The position numbers were made by a program, and so were the translations under genes. Under the pieces are notes generated by a model. That model saw nothing but the letters and a program-made list of their open reading frames with translations. It did no database searches and was not told the DNA's origin. A DNA stretch of 64,000 bases from Rhizobium jaguaris (lineage in GTDB: Bacteria; Pseudomonadota; Alphaproteobacteria; Rhizobiales; Rhizobiaceae). The DNA lies in the NCBI RefSeq assembly GCF_003627755.1, contig NZ_CP032694.1, positions 4,460,501 through 4,524,500 of the forward strand, in the 5' to 3' direction. Positions 26,175 through 42,672 of the stretch are shown here, one piece after another (within the stretch, counting starts at the first letter, position 1; every line of letters begins with the position of its first letter).

Positions 26175-27080
26175 ATGAAGGCCAGCCTCGATCATCTGCC
26201 GGAACGCAAACAGCGCGAATTGTCGCGCATCGTCGAGATCCTGCATGAGGAGTTCGAGGATGCGCTGAAGGAAGGCACCGCCGACTTCAAGAAGAAGGGG
26301 CGCATCCTCAAAATCATTTTGTTCGGCTCCTATAGTCGTGCCGACTGGGTGGATGAGGTCCACACCAGCAAGGGCTATAAGTCCGACTATGACCTGCTGA
26401 TCATAGTGAATAACCGCAAGCTCACCGATTTCGCGCTTTTCTGGCACAAGGCAGCCACTCGTTTCCCTTTCGACCGCCTCATCAAGACGCCGGTCAGCCT
26501 GATCGTGCATTCGCGCCGCGAGGTCAACGCGGCGCTGAAGGAAGGCAACTATTTCTTTAGCGACATCCGTCGCGACGGCATAGTACTCTTCGAGCTCGAC
26601 GATGAAGAGCTGTCCGAGCCCAAACCGCTCTCCGCCGCGGACGAGCTGAGCGCCGCGCGAACACATTTTGATAGCAGAGCCCCAGGTGCGACTAACTTTC
26701 TTCGTCTCTCGAAAGTCGCGATCGAGACAAACATGCTGAAAGAGGGGGCATTCTTACTTCATCAGGCCATCGAGCAAGCTTATTCGACATTACTGTTGAC
26801 GCTGACCAATTATAGCCCAGCCTCACATAACCTCAACCACCTAAGAACGCTAGCTGAAGGCCGTGACCGGCGCCTCGTGGAGATTTGGCCAAACGAGCGC
26901 CAACGCTATGTCGCCTGGTTCAACACCATCAATCAGGCTTATGTGAAGGCTCGCTATTCGCCGCACTACGAGATCAGCGAGGAGGCCCTGCTGTGGCTGC
27001 GTGAGCGGACGGCCGAGTTGCAGCAGCTCGTCAAGGCTATTTGCGAGGAGCACCTGACGGAATTGAAGAAGCGGTTGTAA
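26175..27080 (+). CDS. Nucleotidyltransferase-HEPN fusion protein (MNT/HEPN toxin-antitoxin type)
   Basis: 301 aa. The N-terminal half is a minimal nucleotidyltransferase: FGSYSRADW (Gly51-Ser52) and KSDYDLLIIV (Asp71, Asp73), the metal ligands. The C-terminal half (about 155-295) is a helical HEPN domain (FLRLSKVAIETNMLKEGAFL, HQAIEQAYSTLL) ending in KARYSPHYEIS. In two-gene MntA/HepT systems the nucleotidyltransferase AMPylates and silences the HEPN RNase; here both are in one chain, a known arrangement. It lies just outside the tRNA-Ser element. A defence role is inferred. Confidence 0.83.
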   Translation: MKASLDHLPERKQRELSRIVEILHEEFEDALKEGTADFKKKGRILKIILFGSYSRADWVDEVHTSKGYKSDYDLLIIVNNRKLTDFALFWHKAATRFPFDRLIKTPVSLIVHSRREVNAALKEGNYFFSDIRRDGIVLFELDDEELSEPKPLSAADELSAARTHFDSRAPGATNFLRLSKVAIETNMLKEGAFLLHQAIEQAYSTLLLTLTNYSPASHNLNHLRTLAEGRDRRLVEIWPNERQRYVAWFNTINQAYVKARYSPHYEISEEALLWLRERTAELQQLVKAICEEHLTELKKRL

Positions 27081-27268
27081 GCTCAGGGAAATACCGCGTC
27101 CGAGGCATGCCATAAGTGTGTTCCGGCGTGCAAATTTGAGTACTTTGGCACATTTCAGCTTGGAATAGGACGTAGGTACTTCCACCCATTCATTCACGGA
27201 ATGGGGAAAAAGTGGGGACACTGAGGGAATCTCGCAGAACCGCAAGAGAAAACAAAACGTTACGCATT

Positions 27269-27282
27269 TGGCGGAGAGGGTG
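27269..27282 (+). other. Left attachment core (attL) of the tRNA-Ser element
   Basis: TGGCGGAGAGGGTG is an exact copy of the 3' end of tRNA-Ser including CCA (41926-41939, read on the + strand). It is in the same orientation and 14.66 kb away, as expected for site-specific integration into the tRNA by the integrase next to the tRNA. Confidence 0.75.
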
Positions 27283-27342
27283 TCCTCCGTACATGAAAAT
27301 TTCTTCAGTAATATCAAAGAATTAATCAGTAAAAGATCTCGA

Positions 27343-27364
27343 TTTTGTAGCAAGATTTGTAGCA
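27343..27364 (+). repeat. Arm-type repeat pair, left end
   Basis: TTTTGTAGCA, three bases, TTTGTAGCA: a 9-bp direct repeat with a 12-bp period, 60 bp inside the left core. The same pair in the same orientation occurs near the right end. This is how arm sites of tyrosine integrases are usually arranged. Confidence 0.6.
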
Positions 27365-27466
27365 CGTATGGCTCGGTGTTAGAAGGATCTAAGGCAGATC
27401 CCATACAGGCGTTTTTTGGGATGTGGCAGTAATTCCTAACAGCCCTGTTTCACACTTGGGGACCCT

Positions 27467-27905
27467 ATGCAGGAAAGTATCCATCGACCGGCGACCGTCT
27501 CGTTCGTCTGCCCTGTCTGCAAAGGTGGGAACGTTTGGGACGTAACCGTTGCACCTTACAAGCTAACGGTAGATGACCCTCGGCAGGCGATCGGGATTTC
27601 CGAAACCGATGCCCCCTGCCCAGACTGCCGAGGAACAATCTACACGATAGTCGTTGAGAACCACGGTGGCGTGGTAAAAACATTTATTAGAGATAACCCC
27701 AATATCAAAGTGAGGTTGGAGAGTTACGAAATTACAAGGTACGAAGACTTTCTGCATAACTACTATCCAACTGATCCTCTCACGACATTCGATAATGCCA
27801 AATTGGAATTGGCAGCCCTGATTATGCGAGTCCCCGAATCCGTACGAGATAGCGTCACATTTTCGCGCATGGCATTTCTCCAATGGATGGGCATGATGGA
27901 GGCGT
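27467..27905 (+). pseudogene. Zinc-ribbon/HEPN protein, 5' part (split by IS3 element)
   Basis: The first 146 codons plus one base of a 292-codon gene. Two CxxC pairs (Cys15/Cys18 and Cys51/Cys54, CPVC and CPDC) form a zinc ribbon. The gene is cut at 27905 by an IS; the local frame then runs into IS sequence and stops after four foreign codons. The 3' part is at 29182-29621. With the IS and one GCGT copy removed, the frame reads MEAYLADRLLG without a break. Confidence 0.85.
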
Positions 27906-27969
27906 TGACCTTGCCCCGTTGAAATAATCCATTTTGAAGTAAGCTCTGGCCCATTGAGAGGACCAGGGA

Positions 27970-28236
27970 ATGAAACGCAACCGTTTTACTGACGAACAGA
28001 TTATCGGCATTCTGAAGGAGCACGAGGCGGGCACGCCAGTATCGGAGCTTTGCCGCAAGCACGGCGTCAGCGATGCCAGCATCTATAAATGGAAGGCCAG
28101 ATTCGGCGGGATGGAGGTGTCTGAGGCCAAGCGGCTGAAGACGCTGGAGGACGAGAACACGAAGCTGAAGCGGCTTCTGGCGGACGCGATGCTCGACAAT
28201 GCCGCGTTGAAAGACCTTTTGGGAAAGAAGTGGTGA
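27970..28236 (+). CDS. IS3-family transposase OrfA
   Basis: 88 aa. A helix-turn-helix ([40 protein letters not shown]) is followed by a leucine-zipper-like helix ([20 protein letters not shown]). It binds the IS ends and supplies the N-terminus of the OrfAB transposase made by -1 frameshifting in the 7-bp overlap with orfB. Confidence 0.92.
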
Positions 28237-29159
28237 CGCCCGCAGCAAAGCGGAACGCTGTCGCGCATCTGATGGATCACCATCGGATGAGTGAACGGCG
28301 GGCGTGTAAAGCCATCGGCGTTTGCCGGATGACAGTTCGTTACGAAAGCAGCCGCATCGACGACCAGGGCCTTCGCGAGCGGATGAAGGCGTTGGCGCAT
28401 GAACGCCGCCGCTTCGGCTATCGACGCATTCATGTGCTGCTCAGACGCGAGGGGCACCTTGTGAACCACAAGAAGCTCTTCCGGCTCTATCGGGAGGAGA
28501 AGTTGACCGTGCGCAAGCGTGGTGGCCGCAAGCGAGCGATCGGCACACGAGCACCGATGCTGATACCAGTAACCGCCAATGAACGTTGGTCGCTGGACTT
28601 CGTGTCGGATCAACTCACCGATGGTCGCAGGTTCCGGGTTCTGACGGTCGTCGATGATTGCACCAGAGAATGCCTGGGTCTCATCGCCGATACATCGCTT
28701 TCCGGCCTGCGTGTTGCTCGTGAGCTGGACCGGATCATCGAGGGGCGTGGCAAGCCGAAGATGATCGTCAGTGATAACGGCAGCGAGTTCACAAGCAATG
28801 CGATCCTGCAATGGACGGACAAGACGAAGATAGATTGGCACTATATCGCGCCAGGCAAGCCGATCCAGAACGCCTTCATCGAAAGCTTCAATGGACGGCT
28901 GCGAGACGAGTTCCTGAACGAAACACTGTTCTCGTCACTGACCCATGCTCGTTCAGCGCTTTCAAACTGGCGCAGCGATTATAACGATAACCGCCCGCAC
29001 TCTGGACTCGGCTGGAGGACACCTGCCGAGTTCGCTCAGACCATCAACCCGCGACGTGATGCGGTGCTGCGCAGCCGAAATGGCTCCGCACCGCAACCCG
29101 CCGCTACCGCCCCGAATACAGCAACCCAAAACCACTGGAGCGAACTCAAAACTGGATAA
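28230..29159 (+). CDS. IS3-family transposase OrfB (DDE integrase domain)
   Basis: 309 aa. HTH_21 segment ([16 protein letters not shown]), then the rve integrase core with [10 protein letters not shown] (Asp), [10 protein letters not shown] (Asp) and [18 protein letters not shown] (Glu). All three catalytic residues are present. It is likely translated as an OrfAB fusion; a GTG at 28230 could also start it. Confidence 0.92.
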
Positions 29160-29181
29160 AACTTGGGGGCAAGGTCAGCGT

Positions 29182-29621
29182 ATCTAGCTGACCGGCTGCT
29201 TGGGATAGTGTTGGATGACCCAAAAATCATGCTTGCTCTGATTGGCAAAGCCGGTCTTGTGGAGAAATTCAGTCTTTTCCAAATAGCCAAAGACCCTGAT
29301 CTAGTGAAAAATACGGTCAAAGCACACCTCCAACATGTGACGTATCACGATGTCGAAAAGGTCGAAAAGCTTTATGGGGCAGCGTTTAAGTCCGGTTTAT
29401 ACGACGAGGACACTCGCGCATATTTTCTTGAGAAAGCTGAAATCCGCCATCATTTTGTACATCGCAATGGTCGAGACAAAGAGGGGAATTTTGTACCCAT
29501 CTCCATTACCGAGGTAATCGCCTTCGGGCAAATGGTGGTTCAGTTGATCGAAGTGTGCGAAGAAAAGTATCGGAAATACAGGGAAGATCGTTATCCAAGC
29601 GGACTGATGCCTGTTGAGTAA
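29182..29621 (+). pseudogene. Zinc-ribbon/HEPN protein, 3' part
   Basis: Continues the gene that begins at 27467. In the reconstructed 292-residue protein the HEPN ribonuclease motif R-x4-H is Arg235 to His240 (RHHFVHRNG), in a C-terminal helical domain. It is therefore like zinc-ribbon/HEPN proteins of the RiboL-PSP-HEPN kind, predicted RNA-cleaving defence or stress effectors. In its present state the catalytic part has no start or ribosome site of its own and is probably silent. Confidence 0.8.
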
Positions 29622-29641
29622 GATGCTAATCTGCACGCAAG

Positions 29642-29845
29642 TCAGACGAAATTCCCACGCCCGGAATTATTGGATAAAAGGCAATAAAAAAGCAGCGCTC
29701 CCCAACCAATGATCGTAAAGCCGAATATCAGATTGAGGAAGAATATTCCGAATTTATTCGGAAGGCTTCGGCAGCACGAAACAATAAATGGCAGGAAATA
29801 GGCGGCAATTGCAACAACAACTATTCCACCGAAACTAAGAGGCAT
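29642..29845 (-). CDS. Superinfection immunity family small membrane protein
   Basis: 67 aa, two transmembrane helices. The pattern AAYFLPFIV...PNKFGIFFLNLIFGFTIIGWGALLFYCLL matches the superinfection immunity protein family (PF14373, T4 Imm-like), membrane proteins that block injection of incoming phage DNA in T4. It starts inside the last 11 bp of the upstream gene, so the two form a coupled operon. In bacterial chromosomes the family's role is less certain. Confidence 0.72.
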   Translation of the reverse strand: MPLSFGGIVVVAIAAYFLPFIVSCCRSLPNKFGIFFLNLIFGFTIIGWGALLFYCLLSNNSGRGNFV

Positions 29846-30404
29846 GGAGGGACTCCCTAACGTCCTTCGAAATTTCCTTAAAGAGACGGGAAATTCTTGG
29901 AGACTCTCCGTTATAGAGAGTGCCCAATAGCTCTTTTTCCATCATTACTTCAGCAGAAGTGAGATGGTTTTTGATTAGTATCTCGCTGGCCTGTGAAATC
30001 GGAAGCTTTCCAATTGTTGTTCTCCCATCCAAAATTTTCGCTGCCACGTTAAGTTCATAATAAACATTCTGGTTTGTGAACAGTATAAAATTGTCTTTCC
30101 TAGTTTTTATGAGTATTTCAGGAACCTCATCGGCAGCAAATTCGTATTTAGCCCGAGACATAATGAAACTCAACGTAGAAACGTCAATTTCTTGAGACGA
30201 TCCCTTTGAAAAAATCATCGGATGGTATCGTTTTTTCTTGAAAATGAGAACAAGAATACCTCCGATGAAGCCGGTAAATACAGTTAATATAACAAATCGC
30301 ATAAAACCGAAATATTTCTCCGAGAGAGTGTCGGCGTACTGGCCGGTCAATACACGTTTCTTCGTTTCAGTCGATATCAAACGTTTGGCGTGGCGAAATT
30401 CCAT
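29835..30404 (-). CDS. Membrane-anchored protein of unknown function
   Basis: 189 aa. One strong transmembrane helix near residues 34-54 (FMRFVILTVFTGFIGGILVLI) is followed by a basic stretch and a soluble C-terminal domain of about 130 aa with no family I recognise. It is translationally coupled to the superinfection-immunity-like gene. Low GC content sets it apart from the chromosome. It may be the partner of the small membrane protein. Confidence 0.68.
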   Translation of the reverse strand: MEFRHAKRLISTETKKRVLTGQYADTLSEKYFGFMRFVILTVFTGFIGGILVLIFKKKRYHPMIFSKGSSQEIDVSTLSFIMSRAKYEFAADEVPEILIKTRKDNFILFTNQNVYYELNVAAKILDGRTTIGKLPISQASEILIKNHLTSAEVMMEKELLGTLYNGESPRISRLFKEISKDVRESLHAS

Positions 30405-30579
30405 AATCGCAATCCATTAAGAGGCGTTTGTGGGACAGTTTTACGGGCCGTTTTGCAATTTGACTCGAAGCGGTTTTCGATTGTGTCGCCACGAACTGCC
30501 ATCAAACAAATCACAACTTTTATAATAGGAGAGTGTGGGACCGTAGATTTGTCAATCTCTAATTTCGTCTCATCCTGGG

Positions 30580-30849
30580 ATGGATGCAAAGGAAATCTTT
30601 GGCTGGAATCTGCGTAAAGCGAGAATTGCTAAGGGCCTTACACAAGAGGCTTTAGCGCTGGAAGCTGATGTTGATCGGGCCTATCTCGGGCGAATAGAGC
30701 GGGGAAAGGAGAACGTCACGATTAACGTCATCGAGATGCTCAGTAGAAAGCTCGACGCTCCGCTGGACAAGCTTTTTCAGGTTCCACCAAAAGATGAGCC
30801 AAAGCCGTTGCCCTTAAAAGCTGGGAGACGGCCAGGGAAGCGTGTCTGA
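30580..30849 (+). CDS. XRE-family transcriptional regulator
   Basis: 89 aa. A single Cro/C1 helix-turn-helix at residues 5-60: NLRKARIAKGLTQEALALEA then DRAYLGRIERGKENVT, followed by a basic tail (KAGRRPGKR). It is the size of a phage or element repressor or restriction controller. It is divergent from the membrane operon (175-bp gap) and converges on the ATPase pseudogene, so it may control the element's maintenance genes. Confidence 0.87.
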   Translation: MDAKEIFGWNLRKARIAKGLTQEALALEADVDRAYLGRIERGKENVTINVIEMLSRKLDAPLDKLFQVPPKDEPKPLPLKAGRRPGKRV

Positions 30850-30906
30850 AGCTTTATGGTGGTGGTCAAAGGAAGCGTGAGAAAGTCATCAAGGCGGAAT
30901 TGGGTA

Positions 30907-32614
30907 CTACTCGGCAAAATAGGACTTAAAGCTGTTTAGAAGGTCCCTGATATCAGGATGGATTTGCGACAATTCGAGTTCATCAACAACCCTCGAAGGC
31001 GTCAATGAAACTCCAAACTTGTCCTGAATGTCTTTTGCAATCAATGAAAATGCCGCTTTGCCTGGTACTTTCGCACGACGGAAGGTTTCCGTATTCCAAG
31101 CTTGAGAGAAGCGATCAGCCTCGTTCGCAGAGAGAGTTGTGACATCCTGTTTTGGATTTCTGCCAAGCTCATACTCGATATATTTCCCCACAATCCTACT
31201 GAAAACCGGATCTTTGAAACCACTGATCGTATCAGAGAAGATCTTGAGAATCTCATTCTCCCAGTCGGCTGCCAGGGTCTTTTTGGAATGCTTTTTGACT
31301 ACCTTTATGATTGCTTCTGGAACGAGAAGAATATTTTCGATTTCCTTCACAGGCAGGACGTGGCAAAGGACGTCGCTATCTTTCATCATCGAGACGAAAT
31401 CGGCTACGTCGGCATCGCACCGATAATCTCGGTCGAACAGCGAAGCAACTTTGACGTCGAATTCAAAAAATTGATTGAAAACCCAAGCAGACGTTGAGAC
31501 TCTTGACCAGTTGGAAAACCCATCGGTCTTCATAAGGGTCACAGAGGCGTCCGAAAGATAGTCTTCACCGCTAACAAGCCGTCCCAATTTGGCAAGTAAA
31601 CGATTATCATGGCCCTCGAAATAGAGTACCTTTTTGGTCCTTGCTAGGCGAGCAAATTGAGCGTTCTCCGAACTGCCGATTGCATCGTAGACTGCCGAAA
31701 AGTCACCTTCCGTTCGAATTCTTTTGGCGGAACGTGCGCCTGGACGAAGAATCAGAACATCTCCCGGATCTACTTTATTAATGATTTCAGTAGAATGCGT
31801 TGCGATGAAATATTGGCCAACTCGGCGTGAAACTACATCCAGAAGACGGTGCTGTAGGTCTGGATGAAGATATATATCCGGTTCATCTAAAACGAGGACG
31901 GACCCCTTATTCGCTTTCAGCAGATGCGTCATTGTTTGCATCCAAACTTGAAAACCGAAGCCGGCCCATTGCACTTCACGAACATGCGGCCCGTCTCTAA
32001 AATACATTCTAACGACCGGTTTCGTGTCGGTTTGTTGAGTTTCCGGGAATCGTAATTTTAAGCCGGGCCAGCCGAACTCCACCAATTCCGCAAACTCTTC
32101 GAATTCTTTTGACGTGCGATTTAGCCAGAAGTTTCGAAAGTTCCGGCTGGCAAGCCTGCTATACCTATTCCTCTCGACCGTTTCGGGGTTAACCAGTTCT
32201 TCGTTCTGTTCTAGAGGGCTCAGGGTTGGAACGACGACAATATCGAGGGGGAAATGCTTCCTGAGAAAACTGGCCTTCGTCTGAGCTCTTGCTTCGGTCA
32301 CCAAGTAGCACTCTAGGTCACCGTTCGCCGGTATCTTCATTTTGAAGGCAGAGCCATTATCGGCTCGAATTACAATTCTTGCGTTTATCCCGTCCATAAA
32401 ATTATGCACACAGTACCGGAGATCGGTCTGAATTGCCGTTGGAGGCACAAAGTAAGTTGCGCAGACGCCGTCTTGGTCCTGTGACCTCAGTTCACCTTTA
32501 CGTCGGCTCGCAAACCTCAATGTTCGGCCCGACGAGAACGTTTCGCGTTTTGGCAGACACCGAAAAGTGTGAATAAGATTTGTAGTCAAAAAATTCTAAT
32601 GCCCTTATCAACAT
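30907..32614 (-). pseudogene. AAA ATPase with TOPRIM-like C-terminus (OLD/PARIS-like), P-loop deleted
   Basis: The gene starts at ATG 32614 with MLIRALEFFDYKSYSHFS and VLVGPN, the normal run-up to a Walker A motif. It then loses the NxGKST segment and changes frame at about 32520; the old frame stops within 10 codons. The remaining 550 codons are open: Walker B VLVLDEPDIYLHP, H-loop FIATHSTEI, then VLYFEGHDNRLL and SLFDRDYR with KEIENILLVPE, a TOPRIM/DUF4435-like nuclease part. Relatives are OLD-type and AriA/AriB-like anti-phage ATPases. An open frame from TTG 32589 exists but gives a protein without a P-loop. Confidence 0.78.
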
Positions 32615-32882
32615 CGTAAGCCCGTCGATCTGCTTAGTTGAGTGATTAGGTGAATAGTGCAACTATTCATTTAATGATTTGTCTAGATTATGCGACGGGT
32701 CGGCAAGTTATCTCAAAACGCACAGCCTTATGACAGAGATCGATTCGACGTTTGTCGTTGTCACTTGAGAATTGGGTATACCTTTTGCGAACCGGGTTCG
32801 TGTTGGTTCGATAACTTTGATTTGACCATCTAAAAAGAACCGGATATAAGCGAACTAGTCAAAACGAACCGGGTGGCCAGAA
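32615..32882. other. Divergent promoter gap with GAACCGG repeats
   Basis: 268 AT-rich bases between the ATPase pseudogene and the serine recombinase. Three GAACCGG copies (see the separate entry) are the only structure seen besides promoter-like AT stretches. Confidence 0.4.
32789..32873 (+). repeat. Three GAACCGG repeats upstream of the serine recombinase
   Basis: GAACCGG starts at 32789 (inside the palindrome CGAACCGGGTTCG), 32837 and 32866. The last copy is 10 bp before the recombinase start. They could be the recombinase's own binding or operator sites, like subsites of a res region. Confidence 0.45.
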
Positions 32883-33497
32883 ATGACGTTCGTGCGTGCC
32901 TATCTCCGAGCCTCGACAAAAGACCAGGATGCAAACCGGGCAAAAGACGACCTGTTTCGATTTGCCGCCGAGCGAGGATTAAAGATCGCTGCTGCGTATT
33001 CCGAAAATGAGAGTGGTGCGTCGCTAAAGAGGCCGGAGCTTTTTCGATTGCTCAATGACTGCCAGCCGGGAGACATGCTTTTGGTAGAGCAGATTGATCG
33101 TTTGAGCCGGTTGAATGCCGAAGATTGGGAACGGCTGAAATCCCAAATCCAATCGAAGAAGGTCAAGGTCGTCGCCCTTGATCTTCCAACTTCATGGATA
33201 ATGGCGAACGGCAATGCAGACGATATTCAGTCTCGTATGATGGAGGCTATAAATGGGATGATGATTGATATGCTCGCTGCAATTGCACGCAAAGATTACG
33301 ATGATCGCAGAAGGCGGCAATCACAAGGAATTGCGAAAGCTAAGAGCGAAGGCAAATATAGAGGGAGACCGGAAGACAAGGAGCGGAATAAAGCAATCCG
33401 CAAAATGCTCGCATCCGGTCAAAGTTGGTCAGCGATAGTTGCGGCAACCGGGTGTTCGCGTTCAACGCTTTCGCGACTTACAAAGCAAGATGGGTAA
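32883..33497 (+). CDS. Serine recombinase (resolvase/invertase family)
   Basis: 204 aa. Catalytic Ser11 is in YLRASTKDQDANRAK; the supporting arginines are in EQIDRLSRL. A helix E and a C-terminal helix-turn-helix (GQSWSAIVAATGCSRSTLSRL) follow. It is the size of Pin/Tn3-resolvase-type enzymes that act on short sites to invert or resolve DNA. It is intact, unlike the element's integrase. It may resolve multimers or switch a promoter; its sites are probably the GAACCGG region just upstream. Confidence 0.9.
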   Translation: MTFVRAYLRASTKDQDANRAKDDLFRFAAERGLKIAAAYSENESGASLKRPELFRLLNDCQPGDMLLVEQIDRLSRLNAEDWERLKSQIQSKKVKVVALDLPTSWIMANGNADDIQSRMMEAINGMMIDMLAAIARKDYDDRRRRQSQGIAKAKSEGKYRGRPEDKERNKAIRKMLASGQSWSAIVAATGCSRSTLSRLTKQDG

Positions 33498-33498
33498 T

Positions 33499-33928
33499 CT
33501 ATTGGCACTTTGCCATGTATTTGTAAAACGGATATTTCTTCGCTGAAACAGTTGGGAAAAACTCGTCAACGCAATAGTTAGTATTGTTGTTCTTTAAGTT
33601 CGAGCTATATTTACCACAATAATCTATCGTTCTAGCAAATTCGAATTCAAAATAATCGATTTTTTTAAATGATACACTTTCAATTATTTTGCTGCCGCAC
33701 TTGTTAAGCACGCCAGAATCTAGAGCGCTGCGGAAATTATCGATTGTCTTCGGATTGACCAATATAATTCCATGCAAATGGGGTATCTGTGCATCCTGTA
33801 CAAATTTAGTTCTACGACTGCCCTCGACATCGTAGGAAACCCATGTCAATGGCTGCAGATGGACGTTTTTGAATGGCTTGTTTGGAATCAACGTTTTCAC
33901 GAGTTCCAAATAATATTGCAAATTCCGA
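33499..33928 (-). pseudogene. HUH-like replication protein, 3' part (split by IS21 element)
   Basis: This carries codons 77-218 of the reconstructed 218-aa protein. It has QIPHLHGIILV (His126-Leu-His128, the metal-binding HxH of HUH nucleases) and TIDYCGKYSSN (Tyr179 and Tyr183 around Lys182, a Y-x-x-K-Y active-site pattern). The 5' part lies beyond the IS at 36511-36737. GC content is far lower than the chromosome. Assignment to HUH replication proteins or relaxases rests on these two motifs only. Confidence 0.62.
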
Positions 33929-34087
33929 GGCAATCCGCCCCCTGATTCCGAAATGATGTCGCCCCCCAATTCCGAGAATTAGTCGCCCCCTTGTTCCGAG
34001 ATGATGCCGCCCCCTACGGAGGGATGTGGCAAGGGTGTTCTGCCGGTGTGAAGTTCCTTCCGTCAATGATGACAAGGAAGGAACGGG

Positions 34088-35638
34088 ATGCCTGCGGAGA
34101 GACTGGAGATGCGGCGTGTCCGCGAGATACTGAGATATCGGTCCGAGCAAGGGCTGGGCCACAAATCGATTGCGGTTCGGGTCGGAGCAGCAGCCTCGAC
34201 GGTGCGCGAGACGCTGCGACGGGCGGCGGCTGCGGGGCTTTCGTGGCCGTTGGATGATGACGTGAGTGATGCCGTCCTGGAGGCGGCGCTCTACCGTGCG
34301 GCTGGGACGAAGACGGGTCATCGTCGCGCACCGGAGCCTGACTGGGTGCAAGTCCATCGCGAGCTCAAGCGCAAGCACGTGACGCTGCAAATTCTCTGGG
34401 ACGAATACATAAGCCGTTATCCCGATGGTTACCGCTACAGCCGATATTGTGACCTCTATCGCGGCTGGGCGTTGAAGCTGCCGGTGACGATGCGGCAGGA
34501 TCATATGGCGGGCGACAAATTGTTCGTCGACTACGCCGGCGACACGGTCACTGTTGTCGTTGATCGGCTGTCGGGCAAAACACGGCAGGCCCATTTATTT
34601 GTCGCTGTCCTGGGGGCATCCAGTCTTTCGTTCGCGCAGGCGCGCTGGACCGAGACGCTTCCGGACTGGGTCGAATGCCATGTTCAGGCGCTGGAGTTCT
34701 TCGGCGGTGCGCCGGCGTTGCTGGTTCCCGACAATGCCAAGGTGGCGATCATCAAGGCGTGCCACTTCGATCCCCAGGTCAACCGGACGTATTGCGCGAT
34801 GGCAGCGCATTATGGCAGCGCCGTCCTGCCGACGAGGCCGAGACGCCCCCGCGACAAGGCGAAAGTCGAGGCTGCGGTTCGTATCGTCGAGCGTTGGCTG
34901 CTGGGCCGCCTCCGCCATCGCACCTTCTACAGTCTGGCCGAAGTCAATGCGGCGATTGCCGACTTGCTATATGATTTGAACGACAGGCGTGTCCTTCGCC
35001 GGGTTGGCGTCACGCGCCGCCAATTGTTCGAAGAGCTCGACCGGCCCGCTTTAAGGCCATTGCCCGTTGAACGCTATGTCTTTGCGGAATGGCGTATCCG
35101 GCGTGCTGGATTGGATTACCACGTCGAGATCGAGCGGCATTATTACTCCGTTCCCTATCGCTTTGCTCGCGAGCAAGTCGAGGCGCGCATCACCGCCAAT
35201 ACGATCGAGATATTCCACAAAGGCGAGCGAATAGCCGCTCATCGCCGCTCCAGCGGTAACGGCAAGCACACCACAATCCCCGATCACATGCCCTCGGCCC
35301 ACCGCCGCTTTGCCGACTGGACGATCGAACGCATTCAACGCGAGGCCTCTTCCATCGGGCCGGAGGTTGCATTGCTGTGTGAGAAGATCCTCGCCGACAG
35401 GCCGCACCCGGAGCAGGGCTTTCGAGCCTGCATGGGAATTATCCGCCTGAACAAAAGCTTTGGCCGCGACAGAGTGAACGCTGCTTGCAGCCGTGCGCTT
35501 GAGATCGGGGCCCGGACCTACGGTTCGGTGCGCTCCATCCTCGACAATCATCTCGATCGAGCCGCCTCCACCAATGGACCACCTTCGCATGAGCCTATCC
35601 AACACGAAAACATCCGTGGACCTCGCTATTACCACTAA
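34088..35638 (+). CDS. istA: IS21-family transposase IstA
   Basis: 516 aa. The N-terminal helix-turn-helix (GLGHKSIAVRVGAAASTVRE) is followed by the rve-type DDE core: DKLFVDYAGD (Asp), LVPDNAKVAI (Asp) and DKAKVEAAVRIVERWLLG (Glu). AAGGAACGGG precedes the ATG. It catalyses cut-and-paste of circularised IS21 together with IstB. Confidence 0.95.
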   Translation: MPAERLEMRRVREILRYRSEQGLGHKSIAVRVGAAASTVRETLRRAAAAGLSWPLDDDVSDAVLEAALYRAAGTKTGHRRAPEPDWVQVHRELKRKHVTLQILWDEYISRYPDGYRYSRYCDLYRGWALKLPVTMRQDHMAGDKLFVDYAGDTVTVVVDRLSGKTRQAHLFVAVLGASSLSFAQARWTETLPDWVECHVQALEFFGGAPALLVPDNAKVAIIKACHFDPQVNRTYCAMAAHYGSAVLPTRPRRPRDKAKVEAAVRIVERWLLGRLRHRTFYSLAEVNAAIADLLYDLNDRRVLRRVGVTRRQLFEELDRPALRPLPVERYVFAEWRIRRAGLDYHVEIERHYYSVPYRFAREQVEARITANTIEIFHKGERIAAHRRSSGNGKHTTIPDHMPSAHRRFADWTIERIQREASSIGPEVALLCEKILADRPHPEQGFRACMGIIRLNKSFGRDRVNAACSRALEIGARTYGSVRSILDNHLDRAASTNGPPSHEPIQHENIRGPRYYH

Positions 35639-35650
35639 GGAGAACAAAGA

Positions 35651-36388
35651 ATGCTTGCCCATCCAACACTCGACAAACTCAATTCCATGGGCCTGGCCGG
35701 CATGGCAAAGGCCTTCGGGGAGCTCGTCACCAACGGCGAAGCCGAACATCTCTCGCATGCCGAGTGGCTAGGACTGCTGCTCGAACGGGAGTGGAGTTCC
35801 CGCTACGATCGTAAGCTTGCCGCACGCCTCAGGTTTGCCAAGCTTCGCCACCAGGCCACCCCGGAAGATGTCGACTACCGCAGCGAGCGCGGCCTTGATC
35901 GCGCGCTCTTCATGAAGCTGCTCGGCGGCGACTGGATCAACGCTCATGACAATCTGGCCATTTGCGGACCCTCGGGTGTCGGAAAAAGCTGGTTAGCCTG
36001 CGCTCTCGGCCACAAGGCTTGCCGTGACGATCGTTCCGTTCTCTATCAGCGTGTCCCACGACTGTTTGCTCAGCTCGCACTTGCTCGCGGCGACGGCAGG
36101 TATGCTCGGCTGCAACGTACCCTGGGCCATGTTCAAGTCCTGATCCTCGACGACTGGGGTCTCGAACCGCTCAACGAACAGGCCCGGCACGACCTCCTCG
36201 AAATCCTGGAAGATCGCTACGGCCGCAGATCAACCATCATTACCAGCCAACTTCCGGTGTCGGCATGGCACGACGTCATAGGAAACCCGACTTATGCTGA
36301 TGCCATCCTGGATCGCCTCGTTCACAACGCCCATCGCATCGAATTGAGCGGCGATAGCCTACGCCGAAACCTGCCCCGAAAAGCTTGA
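35651..36388 (+). CDS. istB: IS21-family helper ATPase IstB
   Basis: 245 aa, DnaC/DnaA-like AAA+ ATPase. Walker A is CGPSGVGKSWLACALG (about 105-120) and Walker B is VLILDDWGLEPL; the IstB N-terminal helices (STMGLAGMAKAFGEL-like) are present. It remodels target DNA for IstA. The 12-bp gap and the same strand indicate one operon with istA. Confidence 0.95.
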   Translation: MLAHPTLDKLNSMGLAGMAKAFGELVTNGEAEHLSHAEWLGLLLEREWSSRYDRKLAARLRFAKLRHQATPEDVDYRSERGLDRALFMKLLGGDWINAHDNLAICGPSGVGKSWLACALGHKACRDDRSVLYQRVPRLFAQLALARGDGRYARLQRTLGHVQVLILDDWGLEPLNEQARHDLLEILEDRYGRRSTIITSQLPVSAWHDVIGNPTYADAILDRLVHNAHRIELSGDSLRRNLPRKA

Positions 36389-36510
36389 CACCCCGCCTAA
36401 ATGGACTGACAACAATCATCGCCTGCAGACCCCACTAAACAGGGGGCGAGATCATCCCGGAATCAAGGGGCGCAATCATCTCGGAACAAAGGGGCGGCTT
36501 CATCGGAATC

Positions 36511-36737
36511 GGCAAATATTGTTTGAAAGCCTTCATAACATATTCTTGTTTTAATATATCGCTCTTTATACTTGTATGCTTGAAGTGGGCAGTCAATAAA
36601 TAAAGATTTGTCTCTAATAGATTTTTATCGATATCGTTGTGAAAAAATGTGTTATCAAATATCGATTTATCTTCGAATGTTCTCTGAACAAAATCGGGCA
36701 TTGAGTTCAATTTATTTCCAATATAGTTTTTATACAT
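36511..36737 (-). pseudogene. HUH-like replication protein, 5' part
   Basis: Codons 1-75 and two bases of the gene whose remainder is at 33499-33928. ATG 36737 is preceded by AAAGGA. Joined across the IS with one GGCAA removed, the frame reads FKQYLPRNLQYYLELVK. It follows a 24-bp hairpin (36768-36791) by 30 bases, a layout like a rep gene just downstream of its nick-site hairpin; that parallel is inference. Confidence 0.6.
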
Positions 36738-36767
36738 ATTAATCCTTTATCTTAAATACTCCTAAAC

Positions 36768-36791
36768 AATAGTCAGGAGAACCTGACTATT
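36768..36791. terminator. Perfect hairpin upstream of the replication-like gene
   Basis: AATAGTCAGG, loop AGAA, CCTGACTATT: 10-bp perfect arms in AT-rich DNA. It could end transcription between the 58-aa gene and the next one, or be the nick-site hairpin of a rolling-circle origin. The rest of the 254-bp gap (36738-36991) shows no gene. Confidence 0.5.
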
Positions 36792-36991
36792 TTAATTGAT
36801 AAATTCTGTTTGATTATCTAAGCCACCTATCGGAAAATTTATCCGGAAAAAGCGCTGTTCTTTTGAAGATCGCAGCAGAAGTAAATGAATAACCTATACT
36901 AATTATAAGTATATTCAGAGAAATAATTCTTAAAAATTTTATTTTAAGACAAAATTAAATCGAGTTGCCAAATTACAACAGTGCGTATTTC

Positions 36992-37168
36992 TTAAAAAGA
37001 ATCCATTTCATCAATATATCCCTTGATCGCTATTGCGATACTCTTTGCCTTAATGTAATTCTTATAGTCACCGTTATTATCGAATACAATAATAGCCTGC
37101 TTTAGTTCGCTGAAAAATTGTTCTCTATATGAATAATCTAAAAGTATATCTCGATTATGGTTTCGCAT
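36992..37168 (-). CDS. Small protein of 58 aa in the element
   Basis: An open frame read by me: MRNHNRDILLDYSYREQFFS at the start and KAKSIAIAIKGYIDEMDSF at the end. It is mostly helical and charged with no known family. ATG 37168 lies 14 bp inside the end of the integrase gene and GAAAGG is about 10 bases upstream, so it is probably coupled to the integrase. In many integrative elements a small protein at this place is an excisionase or a regulator; no helix-turn-helix is obvious here. Confidence 0.5.
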   Translation of the reverse strand: MRNHNRDILLDYSYREQFFSELKQAIIVFDNNGDYKNYIKAKSIAIAIKGYIDEMDSF

Positions 37169-37517
37169 ATTTTTCTTGCCTTTCTTTCAAGTGCGCTTTC
37201 CCGTTTTTGTGCGCTTCGGCAAGAGCATCATACTTATTTTTGAGGGTGTATCCCGTCCCGTAATGCATTCCGATCACATTTTGCTTGTGTCCAAGAATTG
37301 CATTGGCGAGTCTATCCTCACACCCACTATTTCGAAGGAGATCCGCAAGACGGTGCCGGAAGGAGTAGAATGTCTTCTCAGGATATTTGCTTAGGAATTT
37401 TCGCGCAGCAACGCTCACTGCTTCGCCACCGTTGTCACGACGATATCGGTCAAAGCCGTTCGGAAAACGCTTCATCCAAGTCAACGACTCTCCATACAGC
37501 GGTATCTCGCGATGACG
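37155..37517 (-). pseudogene. Tyrosine integrase of the tRNA-Ser element, 3' part
   Basis: The last 118 codons of the integrase whose 5' part is at 40667-41640. The C-terminal catalytic boxes are YSFRHRLADLLRNSG, LGHKQNVIGMHYGTG with the nucleophile candidate Tyr in HYGTGY. Many relatives have His where this copy has Tyr in YSFRH. IS66 separates the two parts; 37510-37517 is the duplicated CGATGACG. Confidence 0.85.
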
Positions 37518-37578
37518 GTGAGCGCAATGAATGGCCCACGGCTTTTGTGATTGACTAAAATAGGTTTCTGGCTCTCGG

Positions 37579-38142
37579 TCAGAACTTCTGCTTTGCCCGC
37601 TTCGGCATAAAATAGGTTCGGATATTGACGAGTGCTTCGGCGACGGCAGCAGCATCCTGGTGGGTCGCTTTCCGTTTTATCTCGCCGAGCTTGCGGAGTG
37701 GCGCGATGATATCCCCAGTGACGGCATGACCTCGAAGGACAGGCCGCCACAGCTTCGGCGCATACCCTGTTCCCAGCAAAAAGCAGAGGTCCCAATCAAA
37801 TGGATCAAGGGTCTGATCATCGATCTGGGTGAACCTTGGCCGGTGGTCTTTCGGTCTCTCGGAAAGGCTTGCAGATATCCGATTATACTCTGCAACGATC
37901 GTCTGCACGGCCCGATGTTCGGTTGTTTCCATCGGCAGGTTTAGGGCATCCGGGCCGGTCAGTTCCGGGATCCACTTGCGTGGGTCGATGAACTTTGGGC
38001 CGATGATGAGAGCCGTGAGATAGCCATCGAGACCGCTCATTGACCAGATAGGCGATGGCGGACGACGTTTCCTGATAAAGGCTTCGAATGCGTCGTCATC
38101 GAGCTTCGGTCGCGGCGTCATCTCCTGGCTGTTCTGTGTCAT
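37579..38142 (-). CDS. UPF0149 (YecA/YgfB-like) passenger protein of IS66
   Basis: 187 aa. LDDDAFEAFIRKRR and MSGLDGYLTALIIGPKFIDPRKWIPEL are the marks of the UPF0149/YecA family, small helical proteins of unclear function. Its ATG overlaps the tnpC stop as ATGA, so it is translated with the transposase genes. It lacks the C-terminal SEC-C zinc motif present in some relatives. Such passengers recur in some IS66 elements. Confidence 0.8.
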   Translation of the reverse strand: MTQNSQEMTPRPKLDDDAFEAFIRKRRPPSPIWSMSGLDGYLTALIIGPKFIDPRKWIPELTGPDALNLPMETTEHRAVQTIVAEYNRISASLSERPKDHRPRFTQIDDQTLDPFDWDLCFLLGTGYAPKLWRPVLRGHAVTGDIIAPLRKLGEIKRKATHQDAAAVAEALVNIRTYFMPKRAKQKF

Positions 38143-39713
38143 GCCGCTTGTCGCTCCTGCTGTGTCATCGCTTCGCGCTCCGCCTTCCAGGCCCAAGGCA
38201 AAAGGCTCTCCATCTCGTTGGCTTTCACTTTGCCGGAGATGATGCGCTCCAACACATCGGCAAGCCAGACGTCGGGGTCCACGCCGTTAAGCTTTGCCGT
38301 GTTGACGAGCGATGCCAGAACAGCGAAGGACTTTCCACCCCGCTCGTTGCCCACGAATAATGAGTTCTTTCTCGTCAGAGCCACGGATTTCATTGAACGC
38401 TCGACGACATTGGAGTCCACCTCGATCCGGCCATCCTCCAGGAAGGCTGTCAGTCCGCTCCAGTGGTTGAGCATGTAAGTGACTGCCTTGCCAAGTGCCG
38501 ATTTCGACGACACCTCGTCGCTCAGTTCGGTGAGATGGACCTTCAGTTCTCTCATGATGGGAGCTGCCTCACGACGCCTGCCGCTAAGCCGGGTATCTTC
38601 ATCTTCCCCTCGTAGTTTTGCTTCGATGCGATAGATTTCGGCAATCCTGGCAAGGATCGACAAGGCCTCCGAAGAGCCGGTCAGCTTGACGACATCGACG
38701 AACTTTCGCCGGGCGTGGGCCAGGCAGAAGGCCAGCCGCATGGGGGCAACGTTGCTCTTGCCGCGTCGTTTGACCATGGTTTTATAGGCTTGGTATCCAT
38801 CAACCTGAAGCACGCCGGCAAACGACGACAGTTGCCCCTCAACCTCGCGAGCGCTGCGGCTTTCGGCAAAAGTATAGGCCACCGCCGGTGGCGCCGGACC
38901 ATTCCAGGGGCGGTCGTCAACTGCTTGCGCCCATAACTGGCAAAGCTTGGTTCGTTTGCGCCCCGGATCGAGGCGCGGCAACGGCGTCTCATCACAGAAC
39001 ATCCTCGGCTGCGAGCGGATGAAGGCGAGTAGCTCGTTATAGAGAAGTTCTAGCCACCAGGCGACCCGCATGACCCAGGCGCCGAGTGTGCCGCGATCGA
39101 TGATGACGCCGCAGGAGGCCAGCATCTGGGCCTGGCGATTGAGCGGGAGATGCCAGGCAAACTTCGAAACAGCGACATGCGCGGCAAACGCCGTGGTCAC
39201 CATGCCACCATCCATCACGCGCGCTGGTGCCGGCGCCTGCACAACAACGCTTTCGCAAGCCCGGCATGCGTAGCGCGGCCGGATCGTCCGTTTCACCCGG
39301 ACAACCGCAGGCACGATGCCGAGCGCCTCGCTGACATCAGCGCCGATGCAATGAAGTTCGAACGAACAGCAGGGGCAAGTCTTGCTCTCCGGCTCGATGA
39401 CCTCGTCATAACGCGGAAGGTGCTTGGGCAAGCGGCCGATATTGCGGGCTGGCGATCTCCGTGCCTGCGTTTTGTCGTCATCGACTGGCGCGACATCGTC
39501 ATTGGCAGCAACGGGAATGTCGCTTAGATCGCCAAGATCGAGCATTGCCTGCGTCGGATCGAGCACCGTCATCTTCTCCGATTTCGTCCCGAAGAGTTGG
39601 CGCTCAAGGAAGGCCACGCGCGCTTTGAGATCGGCATTCTCTTCGTTGAGCGAGAGAATGATCCGGGTCAATTGCGCAGCATCCTGGGGCAAGGGATCGG
39701 GTCGAAGCGGCAT
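38139..39713 (-). CDS. tnpC: IS66 transposase TnpC
   Basis: About 524 aa from ATG 39713 (TAGGG upstream). An N-terminal leucine-zipper helix (LNEENADLKARVAFLERQL) and a zinc-finger segment with CPCC and CRAC pairs precede the DDE core: MFCDETPLP, LQVDGYQAY and GRIEVDSNVVERS. All three acidic residues are present, so this copy may be active. Confidence 0.94.
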   Translation of the reverse strand: MPLRPDPLPQDAAQLTRIILSLNEENADLKARVAFLERQLFGTKSEKMTVLDPTQAMLDLGDLSDIPVAANDDVAPVDDDKTQARRSPARNIGRLPKHLPRYDEVIEPESKTCPCCSFELHCIGADVSEALGIVPAVVRVKRTIRPRYACRACESVVVQAPAPARVMDGGMVTTAFAAHVAVSKFAWHLPLNRQAQMLASCGVIIDRGTLGAWVMRVAWWLELLYNELLAFIRSQPRMFCDETPLPRLDPGRKRTKLCQLWAQAVDDRPWNGPAPPAVAYTFAESRSAREVEGQLSSFAGVLQVDGYQAYKTMVKRRGKSNVAPMRLAFCLAHARRKFVDVVKLTGSSEALSILARIAEIYRIEAKLRGEDEDTRLSGRRREAAPIMRELKVHLTELSDEVSSKSALGKAVTYMLNHWSGLTAFLEDGRIEVDSNVVERSMKSVALTRKNSLFVGNERGGKSFAVLASLVNTAKLNGVDPDVWLADVLERIISGKVKANEMESLLPWAWKAEREAMTQQERQAA

Positions 39714-39761
39714 GACAGACCCTACCATATGAGTCTGAATCTTCAAGCAAAACCAATAGGA

Positions 39762-40118
39762 TCAGCCTGCTTTTGAGGGCCTTCTCACCGCGTTTCGTTT
39801 GACCCTCGTCCAGTCAATGCCGGCCAGCAAAAGCGAGAACTCCTGGGCACTCATCTGCATCGCGCCATCGCAGATCGGCGGCCAAACGAACTTTCCGCTT
39901 TCCAACCACTTCGTTGCCAGGATCATGCCGGATCCGTCCCAATAGATGCAGCGCAGCCGATCGAGACGCTTGGCGCGGAACACAAAAACATCGCCACAAT
40001 ACGGATCAGCAGCAAGCGCCGAAGCCACCAATGCCACCAGGCCATTCATCCCGCGCCGGAAGTCGACAGGTTGCGTCGCAATCATGATCTTCACGCCATT
40101 TGGCGAAACTCCGATCAC
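39762..40118 (-). CDS. tnpB: IS66 accessory protein TnpB
   Basis: 118 aa, IS66 Orf2-like: IMIATQPVDFRRGMNGLVAL then DVFVFRAKRLDRLRCIYWDG and GMILATKWLESGKFVWP. The GTG start overlaps tnpA as GTGA. It is required for IS66 transposition; its biochemical activity is not known. Confidence 0.94.
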   Translation of the reverse strand: MIGVSPNGVKIMIATQPVDFRRGMNGLVALVASALAADPYCGDVFVFRAKRLDRLRCIYWDGSGMILATKWLESGKFVWPPICDGAMQMSAQEFSLLLAGIDWTRVKRNAVRRPSKAG

Positions 40119-40585
40119 CGGCGTCCTCGCAACGCCGCCACCATTGCTTGTGCCAGCTCAGGCGCTACCGAACCGATAACCGTCATGCGCGCGCCGGCAA
40201 TCTCGATCTCAATCCGGCCAGCAAGAACCTCCGAGGCATTCGATGGCGAGCCTTCGTGTCGTGCGCCATCCCCAACCACTGTCACCGGCACGAATACGGC
40301 AGGCGGCAAGCTGGCCTTTGCCGACCGTTGAGAGGTTAGTCCGGCATCCCGTCGCCACACATTCAGCAAGCCGCGATTGACGCCCCAGCGCCTCGCAACA
40401 GCCGAAATGTTCACTTCAGGTTCTGCGCTCTCCGCGAGAATCCGCGCCTTCTCCTCGTCAGTCCAATTCCGCCGCTGCCGCCGACCGGTGATCATCTCGA
40501 TCCGCCGATACTTTCCCTCATGCCTGGCTTCATGCATGCCTTCATCCATGACTTCAAGCATGGCATCAGCGCGATCTCCAACCAT
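40115..40585 (-). CDS. tnpA: IS66 accessory protein TnpA
   Basis: 156 aa. A transposase-8-like helix-turn-helix (NWTDEEKARILAESAEPEVN, AVARRWGVNRGLLNVWRRDA) is followed by a C-terminal part (IEIEIAGARMTVIGSVAPEL) typical of IS66 Orf1. GGAG is 9 bases before the ATG. It starts the coupled tnpA-tnpB-tnpC-passenger operon. Confidence 0.93.
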   Translation of the reverse strand: MVGDRADAMLEVMDEGMHEARHEGKYRRIEMITGRRQRRNWTDEEKARILAESAEPEVNISAVARRWGVNRGLLNVWRRDAGLTSQRSAKASLPPAVFVPVTVVGDGARHEGSPSNASEVLAGRIEIEIAGARMTVIGSVAPELAQAMVAALRGRR

Positions 40586-40666
40586 CCCGGTCCACTCCTA
40601 TCAATGATAGAGCTTATCTCGCGGCCTCATTCACAAAAGAAAAGGTGGGCTGTTCGTCGCGCTCAC

Positions 40667-41640
40667 CGATGACGCTCTCCGCCGCCTTTCACTTTCGTTC
40701 GGAATTCGTTTGGTTTGATACGAATATGAGGGATATCCGCGTCTAAAACGATGTCCGATGACGTGAGTAGGGCCAGTTCCTTGCACCCCGCTCCAGTAAA
40801 CATCGACACAAACATAATGGCCTTAAGCTGGTCATTTACATTGTTGGAATGAAGCTTCTCCGTAATATCTTCGATCTCGATTTCACTGAATGGCTTCCGA
40901 CGACCCTTTTCAGTGTCTTCAATCGCCTTAACTTCAAAGGGGTTGACTAGTTCCGGATAATCCGCCTGGAAAACGGCATTAATGATCTTACGAAGATGCA
41001 TAATCTTCTTGTTTGCCGTAGATGCAGAGATCTTTCCGCTTTCGATATCAGAGATCAGCTTGTCCCTGAATTGATACCCCTCCTTTTTGGTGAGTTTTCG
41101 AACATCCAAATCACCGATTGCTACGACGAATTCACTGATAGCAAGCTCAATTGGCTTTTGAGCCTTTTGCCGTTCTCTAGGAGTACGCCTGAGGTCTTTG
41201 TCGCGAGTAATGACCTTATATCGGTCATAGATATCTGCGAGTCTCACACTTGAGTTTAGAGCCGCTGCTAGAACGCCAGCTCTGATCCTCGGATTGCTTG
41301 GCAAAGACCTGATTATATCAAGGTTCTTTCCCGTTAGCTCTATGAGTTCGGGCACCGACAAGGACCCGACATCATCGGGAAACGAATGGATTCCTGAGTC
41401 GGCTGCCATTTTTTGAAACTCTGTCGCGCCGATGAAATTTGGGTCTTGCGCTGCAAGCTTAAGCAGAGAATCGTATTTCTGATCCAGCTTTGAGTAATTG
41501 AGCGTGGCCAACCTGCGATCTTTTGTTCCTAACGAAATCACAAACTCTCGTTTGTTATCGAACTGATACCTCAATCGAGGAGGGATAGCCCTTCGAAAAT
41601 AATAAAAACCGTCCCTAATGTGTAAATAATTTAGCTTCAA
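40667..41640 (-). pseudogene. Tyrosine integrase of the tRNA-Ser element, 5' part
   Basis: TTG 41640 with AAAGGA upstream is the likely start; a frame to 41676 is also open. The product would be 442 aa. It holds the N-terminal arm domain (YLHIRDGFYYFRRAIPPRLR), the core-binding domain and the first catalytic box, which reads FTGAGCKELALL: the usual Arg of TGAR is Gly here. After removal of IS66 and one CGATGACG the frame reads KGGGERHREIPLYGES. It lies next to tRNA-Ser, its presumed target. Confidence 0.85.
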
Positions 41641-41847
41641 ATGATTTCCTTTCAATTGATAATTAATCAATGACAAGGTTTGTAGCTAAAATTCCCTTAT
41701 TTGTCAAGGTTTAATTTAGATGCGAGAAATCTATACTTAAATTATGAAATATTGTACTTACAATTCCAAAGTACAAACTTTTGTTATACAAGTATATTTC
41801 TCAGGTAGCTGGTAATGGCGAGCAGCGTTCGCTGCGGAAAACGTGCG

Positions 41848-41869
41848 TTTTGTAGCACAGTTTGTATCA
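41848..41869 (+). repeat. Arm-type repeat pair, right end
   Basis: TTTTGTAGCA, three bases, TTTGTATCA: the same two 9-bp units with the same 12-bp period and orientation as at 27343-27364, with one mismatch. It ends 57 bp before the right core. A single further TTTGTAGC is at 41679-41686. The 285-bp gap between integrase and tRNA holds nothing else I can identify. Confidence 0.6.
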
Positions 41870-41925
41870 TAACACCCGGTTCCGAGCGCTAACTATCTGA
41901 TTTCAATGAAGAAATGTCACAAAAA

Positions 41926-41939
41926 TGGCGGAGAGGGTG
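41926..41939 (+). other. Right attachment core (attR) within tRNA-Ser
   Basis: TGGCGGAGAGGGTG, the 3' end of tRNA-Ser with CCA, repeated at 27269-27282. Integration at this place leaves the tRNA intact. Confidence 0.75.
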
Positions 41940-42015
41940 GGATTTGAACCCACGATGCCCTTGCAGGCATGCCGCATTTCGAGTGCGGTGCATTCGACCA
42001 CTCTGCCACCTCTCC
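41926..42015 (-). tRNA. tRNA-Ser (anticodon CGA)
   Basis: 90 nt including encoded CCA. Acceptor GGAGAGG pairs with CCTCTCC; the anticodon loop is CTCGAAA, anticodon CGA; a long variable arm (GCATGCCTGCAAGGGCATC) and T-loop TTCAAAT are present, as in class II tRNAs. Its 3' end is the attachment site of the 14.7-kb element. Confidence 0.95.
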
Positions 42016-42322
42016 GGTTATGCTGGTCGGCGCGTTTCTCAGCGCGGGCGTTCTCATAGCGAGAGAAGGATGGGATGGCAAGGGTGAATATTCAAGGTTT
42101 TCATCCTTTTGCCTTGACAGATCACAGGCCCTTATATATCCCGTGCGACGCAATAGGTGTGGACAAGTCCGCGCCTTGCCCGCCCAGCTTTGTGCAGGGC
42201 TTCACCGGCAGATCTTTTTGAAGGCCCAAGCCTTTGAAATCCCTGCTAAATTTAGACTGATAAAAAGACGGCCGCTTGTCCTTCTGGGCGAGAGAGCCGG
42301 AACGAACATGAAAGGATAAAAA
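42016..42322. other. Leader of the rplU operon
   Basis: About 300 bp between tRNA-Ser and rplU. It should contain the ribosomal protein promoter and leader. I see no clear hairpin with a known regulatory identity; GGATAAAAA is directly before the rplU ATG. Confidence 0.35.
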
Positions 42323-42640: not shown

Positions 42641-42672
42641 GTAACGGGATCAAGGTTTAAAGGAGAACTCCA

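Follow-up and report, generated by a model that had tools for sequence, protein, structure and literature searches.

Which kind of mobile DNA has entered the tRNA-Ser(cga) gene in a 64-kb stretch of a Rhizobium chromosome (this whole stretch is called the window), and could it still move? The insertion, at positions 27269-41939 and here called the element, was described in an original prediction, made from the sequence alone, as an integrative element, perhaps satellite-like or plasmid-like and carrying phage defence, whose gene set matched no named element known to its author. Our analysis makes it likely that the locus holds an integrative, plasmid-like element with a rolling-circle initiator, and that the copy in the window is now inactive.

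Ends of the element

The element spans 14,671 bp, from its far-end core to its tRNA-side core, and is bounded by the following features:

41926-42015, minus strand: tRNA-Ser(CGA) gene (ARAGORN), whose 3' end, 41926-41939, is the tRNA-side core (attL)
41848-41869, plus strand: tRNA-end arm pair, 57-78 bp inside the core and upstream of the integrase gene (sequence pattern)
27343-27364, plus strand: far-end arm pair, 61-82 bp inside the core, in the same orientation (sequence pattern)
27269-27282, plus strand: far-end core (attR), a 14-bp copy of the tRNA 3' end (sequence match)

The core, TGGCGGAGAGGGTG, is exact at both positions; when up to two mismatches were allowed, three matches were found in the window, the third of which carried two mismatches. 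The arm pairs read TTTTGTAGCA-AGA-TTTGTAGCA at the far end and TTTTGTAGCA-CAG-TTTGTATCA at the tRNA end, and the pattern TTTGTAGCA-N2-5-TTTGTA occurs exactly twice in the window, against an expectation of 0 and in 0 of 100 shuffles. The repeat of the tRNA-Ser 3' end and the arm pairs about 60 bp inside both cores, as originally claimed, were thus borne out, and with an integrase gene inside, adjoining the tRNA, a site-specific integrative element in tRNA-Ser with the proposed ends is supported. Paired direct arm repeats at each end are what an integrase attachment site has.

A family of ten elements

The genes by which relatives of the element were sought are themselves interrupted in the window by insertion sequences (ISs); the pieces were neither mended nor joined, and gene pieces were searched separately:

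40666-41676, minus strand: integrase, N-terminal piece, cut by IS66 (PF20172 DUF6538, E 1.2e-12)
37158-37517, minus strand: integrase, C-terminal piece on the other side of IS66; the listed open reading frame (ORF) enters the IS, to 37655 (PF00589 at E 0.0078, below cut-off)
36995-37168, minus strand: 58-amino acid (aa) protein, role unassigned, directly 3' of the integrase (position, size)
36515-36737, minus strand: HUH protein, N-terminal piece, cut by IS21; the listed ORF enters the IS, to 36435 (sequence comparison)
33502-33916, minus strand: HUH protein, C-terminal piece with PHLHG and YCGK motifs (motifs, profile)

Of 148 genomes of the genus, 19 have a match to the integrase N-terminal piece; apart from the own genome, the best match is that of G089 (68%), which lies in the same tRNA-Ser(cga). 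The C-terminal piece shares 71.6% DNA identity with G089 across 37201-37517. Against genome-contig and viral-contig collections, the N-terminal piece gave 40 and 19 pattern matches, respectively, and no confirmed relative. The HUH profile reached 3 of 148 genomes of the genus, the same count that a search with the ORF gave once matches confined to query residues 1-24, which are IS21 sequence carried by the ORF, had been left uncounted. A family-level search with the G089 HUH protein gave 8 of 394 genomes, in 6 of 109 genera (neither G089, plainly not drawn in the sample, nor G132 was among the matches), and HUH searches of the order gave 6 of 397 genomes, in 5 of 141 genera; all three counts include the own genome, which was also the only match among 289 genomes of the class. 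Genus g96, searched without the own genome, had matches in 4 of 7 genomes. Protein searches returned only 6 and 7 homologues.

Ten elements combine a tRNA gene, a DUF6538 tyrosine integrase and a small HUH protein: that of the window, G089, G132, G421, G503, G517, G273a, G273b, G467 and G374. The integrase-HUH pairing, which the original prediction had proposed to look for elsewhere, recurs in several genera, and no name for such a family was found in our searches. The targeted genes are tRNA-Ser(cga) in four elements, Ser(gga) in two, and Arg(tct), Arg(acg), Asn(gtt) and a selC-like sequence in one each. Nine elements adjoin a tRNA found by ARAGORN and the tenth adjoins the selC-like match, which is sub-threshold (at the G273a site, Rfam gave nothing at the gathering threshold, and a tRNA-Sec match only at E 0.43); the same gene set at loci without tRNA cores, which would have spoken against the proposal, did not appear among the ten. 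Left out of the ten were the HUH matches L058, L059, L091-L096 and L103, in which the DUF6538 integrase arrangement was not seen as far as examined, and G072, with an integrase and a 57-aa gene and no HUH seen before the contig end.

A gene for a protein of about 57 aa follows the integrase in eight of the ten elements (it was not seen in G421 or G467), several of these assignments being by position and length, not sequence; in G467, integrase and HUH are separated by other genes. A like-sized small protein also follows the integrase in three relatives with no HUH gene seen, G072 and the Sinorhizobium megaplasmid loci L106 and L107. Separately, HUH relatives from other families (L092, L093, L094 and L096) lie close to integrases of a different type; in L092, the place between integrase and HUH that the gene of about 57 aa takes in most of the ten is occupied by an excisionase-like gene, recognized by eye.

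Cores were found at both ends of seven elements, in five tRNA types. The core-to-core distances are 14,657 bp in the window, 17,921 bp in G374, 6,826 bp in G132, 7,209 bp in G517 and 7,952 bp in G273b and, with one core mismatch, 20,599 bp in G503 and 17,225 bp in G421. In G089, no second core was found at 0 or 1 mismatch in 46 kb, and one match with two mismatches was taken as chance; the second core was not searched in G273a, and G467 (like G072) ends near a contig end. All seven two-core elements share a word of 9-15 bp between their ends, a length reached in 10 of 1000 shuffles for the window, 55 for G421, 17 for G503, 6 for G132 and 0 for each of G374, G517 and G273b. In these seven, the 9-bp arm copies begin at 47-102 bp from the tRNA-side core and at 60-94 bp from the far-end core, with a tandem spacing of 12-13 bp (one mismatch allowed), and 5 of 7 start at 54-57 on the tRNA side; the arm word itself varies among elements (TGCTACAAA, TGGTACAAA, CTGGTACAT, TGTTACATT, TCACGTTTT).

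Tandem words also precede the gene in three of four integrases of DUF6538 type on Sinorhizobium megaplasmids (L107 has none); L104 and L105, both with tandem words, lie next to tRNA-Arg(ccg). Because no HUH-pattern ORF was seen near these four integrases (L104-L107) in the stretch listed, the arm rule seems tied to the integrase and not to HUH. Each of the four loci also carries an ORF of 485-556 aa, helicase-like by eye, with an ATP-binding loop seen in at least three.

The HUH protein and its neighbor, a serine recombinase

HxH followed by YxxK is present in all 12 rows of the HUH alignment (A1), window piece included; a distant match outside it, from G242, has HVQ in place of HxH. The proteins are 200-265 aa long. 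No HUH family matched in the three profile libraries tried, and one of the proteins is recorded as "hypothetical protein"; neither did any helicase family match the 12 proteins in Pfam at E up to 1, and a PDB search by HUH sequence profile gave one weak, unrelated match. Models of the HUH protein bear some resemblance to rolling-circle Reps, with modest scores.

No origin hairpin could be assigned: a conserved one upstream of HUH was considered and rejected, none being common to the ten genes examined (the window has a perfect 10-bp stem, and four others have stems of 7-9 bp elsewhere or none). The window stem, at 36768-36791 with a TTCT loop just before the HUH start, is a candidate Rep site that the relatives do not share.

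Beside the HUH gene lie two further features:

32883-33494, plus strand: serine recombinase, intact (PF00239, E 1.5e-25; DNA match in four other elements)
32772-32882, plus strand: conserved, res-like GAACC-repeat region upstream of the recombinase gene (blastn with G089, G421 and G503; five-sequence alignment with G374)

The recombinase gene is common to the window, G089, G421, G503 and G374, and by eye G132 and G517 have a different serine recombinase. The blastn match extends about 110 bp upstream of the gene in G089, G421 and G503, and in the alignment that includes G374 the GAACC/GGTTC repeats are conserved there. A resolvase with its own site would fit a circular replicating form. The plasmid-like half of the original description is supported by the HUH Rep-type protein and by this resolvase-type recombinase with its conserved repeat site.

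HUH enzymes include relaxases, and the host genome comprises four contigs, so conjugative replicons may be present; the element could thus be an integrative mobilizable element whose HUH protein nicks oriT for transfer by a conjugative plasmid. We consider this improbable. In relaxases the Tyr typically comes first. In the proteins described here, HxH precedes the catalytic-type Tyr and YxxK is present, which is the Rep order (motif naming as in the main text of PMC6668415), and no relaxase family was found for the 12 HUH proteins in Pfam or for two of them in NCBIfam, oriT not having been searched for.

A phage satellite, excised, replicated by its own HUH protein and packaged by a helper phage, would account for the compactness of members of 6.8-8 kb, for the superinfection-immunity gene, and for the viral-library matches of the first HUH model, of which those that are named are mostly microvirus initiators (the seven with E up to 0.001 are without a name). 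Against it, the elements range in size from 6.8 to 20.6 kb, and among the PHROGs rows listed for 10 genes or gene pieces of the window (integrase pieces not included), none was recognized as related to packaging or capsids; nor was a relative of the G089 HUH protein found in plasmids, phage records or IMG/VR, the last search reaching close relatives only. The satellite-like half of the earlier description was accordingly not supported, and we give this explanation only a small chance.

It is similarly doubtful that the locus is an ordinary tRNA genomic island in which nothing replicates and the HUH protein is only cargo, as a nuclease or transposase. Among the 19 genomes of the genus with an integrase match, HUH was found in only three (the window genome, G089 and G132), as might be expected of cargo, but the order of integrase and HUH is preserved across ten elements that differ in cargo, and the two co-diverge.

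Empty sites and the left border

Two relatives, the only ones with the tRNA among seven loci fetched for the left flank, lack the element. In G012, about 130 bp separate the acyltransferase gene from the tRNA, next to which comes the rplU side; this clean empty site aligns with 41925-44290 of the window at 95.9% and with 24318-25500 at 87.0%. In G046, the site holds about 3.3 kb with an older remnant, a fragment matching 25585-25894 (78.6%) that ends 134 bp from the tRNA. Each relative has a single copy of the core 14-mer, within the tRNA itself; the repeat at 27269 was therefore not seen unoccupied in a relative without the element, an outcome that had been named as refuting.

It is very improbable that the true element is larger, reaching about 25500 and including a nucleotidyltransferase-HEPN gene, with the 27269 core as an internal relic: all of 25500-41925 is extra relative to G012, but the 27269 core has an arm pair on its inner side, the arrangement seen at other element ends, and since the 25585-25894 fragment lies so near the tRNA in G046, without the element, the left flank is seen as an older layer. 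The flank with that gene, 25500-27268, appears to be the remains of earlier insertions, the element itself probably ending at 27269. By eye, the fragment common to G046 resembles the end of a type I restriction subunit. For the nucleotidyltransferase plus HEPN protein (26175-27077), outside the element, a DNA copy of 80% identity lies at G000:C1:3125828-3126766, and weaker matches are numerous in the genus.

Decay and cargo of the window copy

The remainder of the element consists of the three insertions, a regulator and putative cargo:

37518-40666, minus strand: IS66-family insertion, 8-bp duplication CGATGACG (PF03050, E 5.2e-92)
33917-36514, plus strand: IS21-family insertion, AATATT duplication (PF01695, E 3.7e-70)
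30910-32662, minus strand: AAA_21 ATPase with a TOPRIM/DUF4435-like part, frame broken at Walker A, about 32490-32530 (library matches; partial similarity to PARIS AriAB)
30580-30846, plus strand: XRE-type regulator, intact (PF01381, E 2e-13)
29838-30404, minus strand: 189-aa protein, membrane protein by eye (ORF; DNA common to G089)
29645-29845, minus strand: Imm_superinfect protein (PF14373, E 1.7e-12)
29178-29618, plus strand: zinc-ribbon gene, C-terminal piece, HEPN-like motif by eye only (0 Pfam families; weak PHROG matches)
27906-29177, plus strand: IS3-family insertion, GCGT duplication (PF13683, E 8.6e-31)
27467-27905, plus strand: zinc-ribbon-like protein, N-terminal piece, cut by IS3 (best Pfam E 0.0086, below cut-off)

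The insertions (IS3, 1,272 bp; IS21, 2,598 bp; IS66, 3,149 bp) total 7,019 bp, and all three have a target duplication; by arithmetic (14,671 - 7,019 - 18), an ancestor of 7,634 bp remains, in agreement with the 7.6 kb given earlier. Within the IS66-family insertion, near its end, lies a UPF0149 protein (37582-38196; PF03695, E 3.8e-16). A correction concerns the condition of the genes listed in the original prediction: the 58-aa gene, the serine recombinase, the XRE gene and the membrane/superinfection-immunity pair have open reading frames, and the integrase (IS66), HUH (IS21), zinc-ribbon (IS3) and ATPase (frame lost in the Walker A region) genes are all broken. Because of this we regard the window copy as inactive; it should not excise or replicate by itself. 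The HEPN label of the zinc-ribbon protein had no family support (0 Pfam families), its RX4H motif being seen by eye only.

The ATPase resembles the PARIS defense system in its AAA_21 domain, a weak DUF4435 match (E 0.01) and a match to AriAB (E 4.7e-15, over part of the model); it differs in that the AriAB match spans residues 226-458 of 560 and in its broken Walker A frame, so that an intact AriA ATPase with an AriB TOPRIM is not what the window encodes. The superinfection-immunity pair is common to the window and G089 (DNA match). Elsewhere, G132 carries GmrSD_N (E 2.3e-19) and an AAA-type protein similar to OLD-like ATPases, G273b carries SIR2_2 (1.4e-20) and Schlafen AlbA_2 (5.6e-18), G089 carries DUF4062, and G072 carries type I restriction; in place of these, translations from G374, G503 and the more distantly related G242 show arsenic genes, identified by eye. 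Defense is cargo of some members, and phage defense as a defining feature was not supported; in the window, the ATPase and zinc-ribbon genes are broken. In G242 (L103), an HUH-family protein (1903-2628) and another integrase-like ORF accompany the same arsenic cargo as in G374 and G503; cargo seems to move between backbones.

Proposed mechanism and significance

From these gene sets we infer how elements of the family might excise, replicate, be regulated and be transferred. The integrase would join a circular form to the tRNA 3' end and could excise the element, perhaps assisted by the protein of about 57 aa. On the circle, the HUH protein would nick an origin and initiate rolling-circle replication, the serine recombinase would resolve multimers at the repeat site upstream of its own gene, and the XRE protein may repress the element's genes. 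Cargo genes are exchangeable, and transfer between cells would need a helper or transformation.

More tentatively, the ten may represent an unnamed Hyphomicrobiales lineage of self-replicating integrative elements that combine an uncatalogued, helicase-free HUH initiator family with doubled 12-bp arm sites differing between integrase branches, and that shuttle interchangeable defense and metal-resistance cargo from one tRNA gene to another; helper conjugation, or a filamentous phage as helper, might move them as single-stranded DNA. A compact mobile chassis, consisting of integrase, mostly a small protein, and HUH initiator, carries whole defense or arsenic cassettes in several rhizobial genera, and annotation misses these elements because the HUH proteins escape three profile libraries and one is recorded as hypothetical. 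With the arm-repeat rule (in seven elements, 9-bp copies that lie 12-13 bp apart and start 47-102 bp inside each end), elements of this kind can be found and delimited in a simple way, and thanks to the integrase-HUH pairing, the movement of small relaxase-less islands becomes directly testable.

Comparison with known systems

Three features look new as far as open-licence literature shows by its titles, the opening lines of abstracts and term counts: the host range, the arm rule and the HUH family without a helicase. Titles and abstract starts yielded no such element, and the term "DUF6538" occurred in 0 papers. PMC13107129, PMC12324425 and PMC11389934 were considered as precedents and set aside, each describing other systems in its accessible text.

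The actinobacterial AICEs (actinomycete integrative and conjugative elements) of pSAM2 type integrate into tRNA genes and have a tyrosine integrase and a rolling-circle Rep. The elements described here share the tRNA integration and the tyrosine integrase and have a Rep-type protein; they differ in host phylum, and no FtsK-like transfer protein was recognized in them.

In the Rep of pCRESS plasmids, the helicase is of superfamily 3. The main text of Kazlauskas et al. 2019 (PMC6668415) describes integrated bacterial HUH-Rep plasmids (the pCRESS groups), mostly site-specifically integrated, bounded by direct repeats and without known viral structural genes, and five further HUH clusters that are likely new integrated elements in other taxa; Alphaproteobacteria, integrase and tRNA each have 0 occurrences in it. 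The likeness lies in a Rep-type protein with HUH and YxxK motifs, site-specific integration, direct repeats and the lack of known viral structural genes. The difference lies in the Rep itself, a nuclease-helicase in pCRESS, whereas the proteins described here are 200-265 aa long and no helicase family matched the 12 that were searched.

A further comparison is with the tRNA-integrated islands of S. meliloti (PMC11476347), three of them on pSymB. HUH has 0 occurrences in that paper, and no HUH-pattern ORF was seen near the four Sinorhizobium integrases in the stretch listed; what the islands share with our elements is short direct repeats at tRNA 3' ends and tyrosine integrases, and integrases of the related DUF6538 type lie on Sinorhizobium megaplasmids, two of the four next to tRNA-Arg(ccg).

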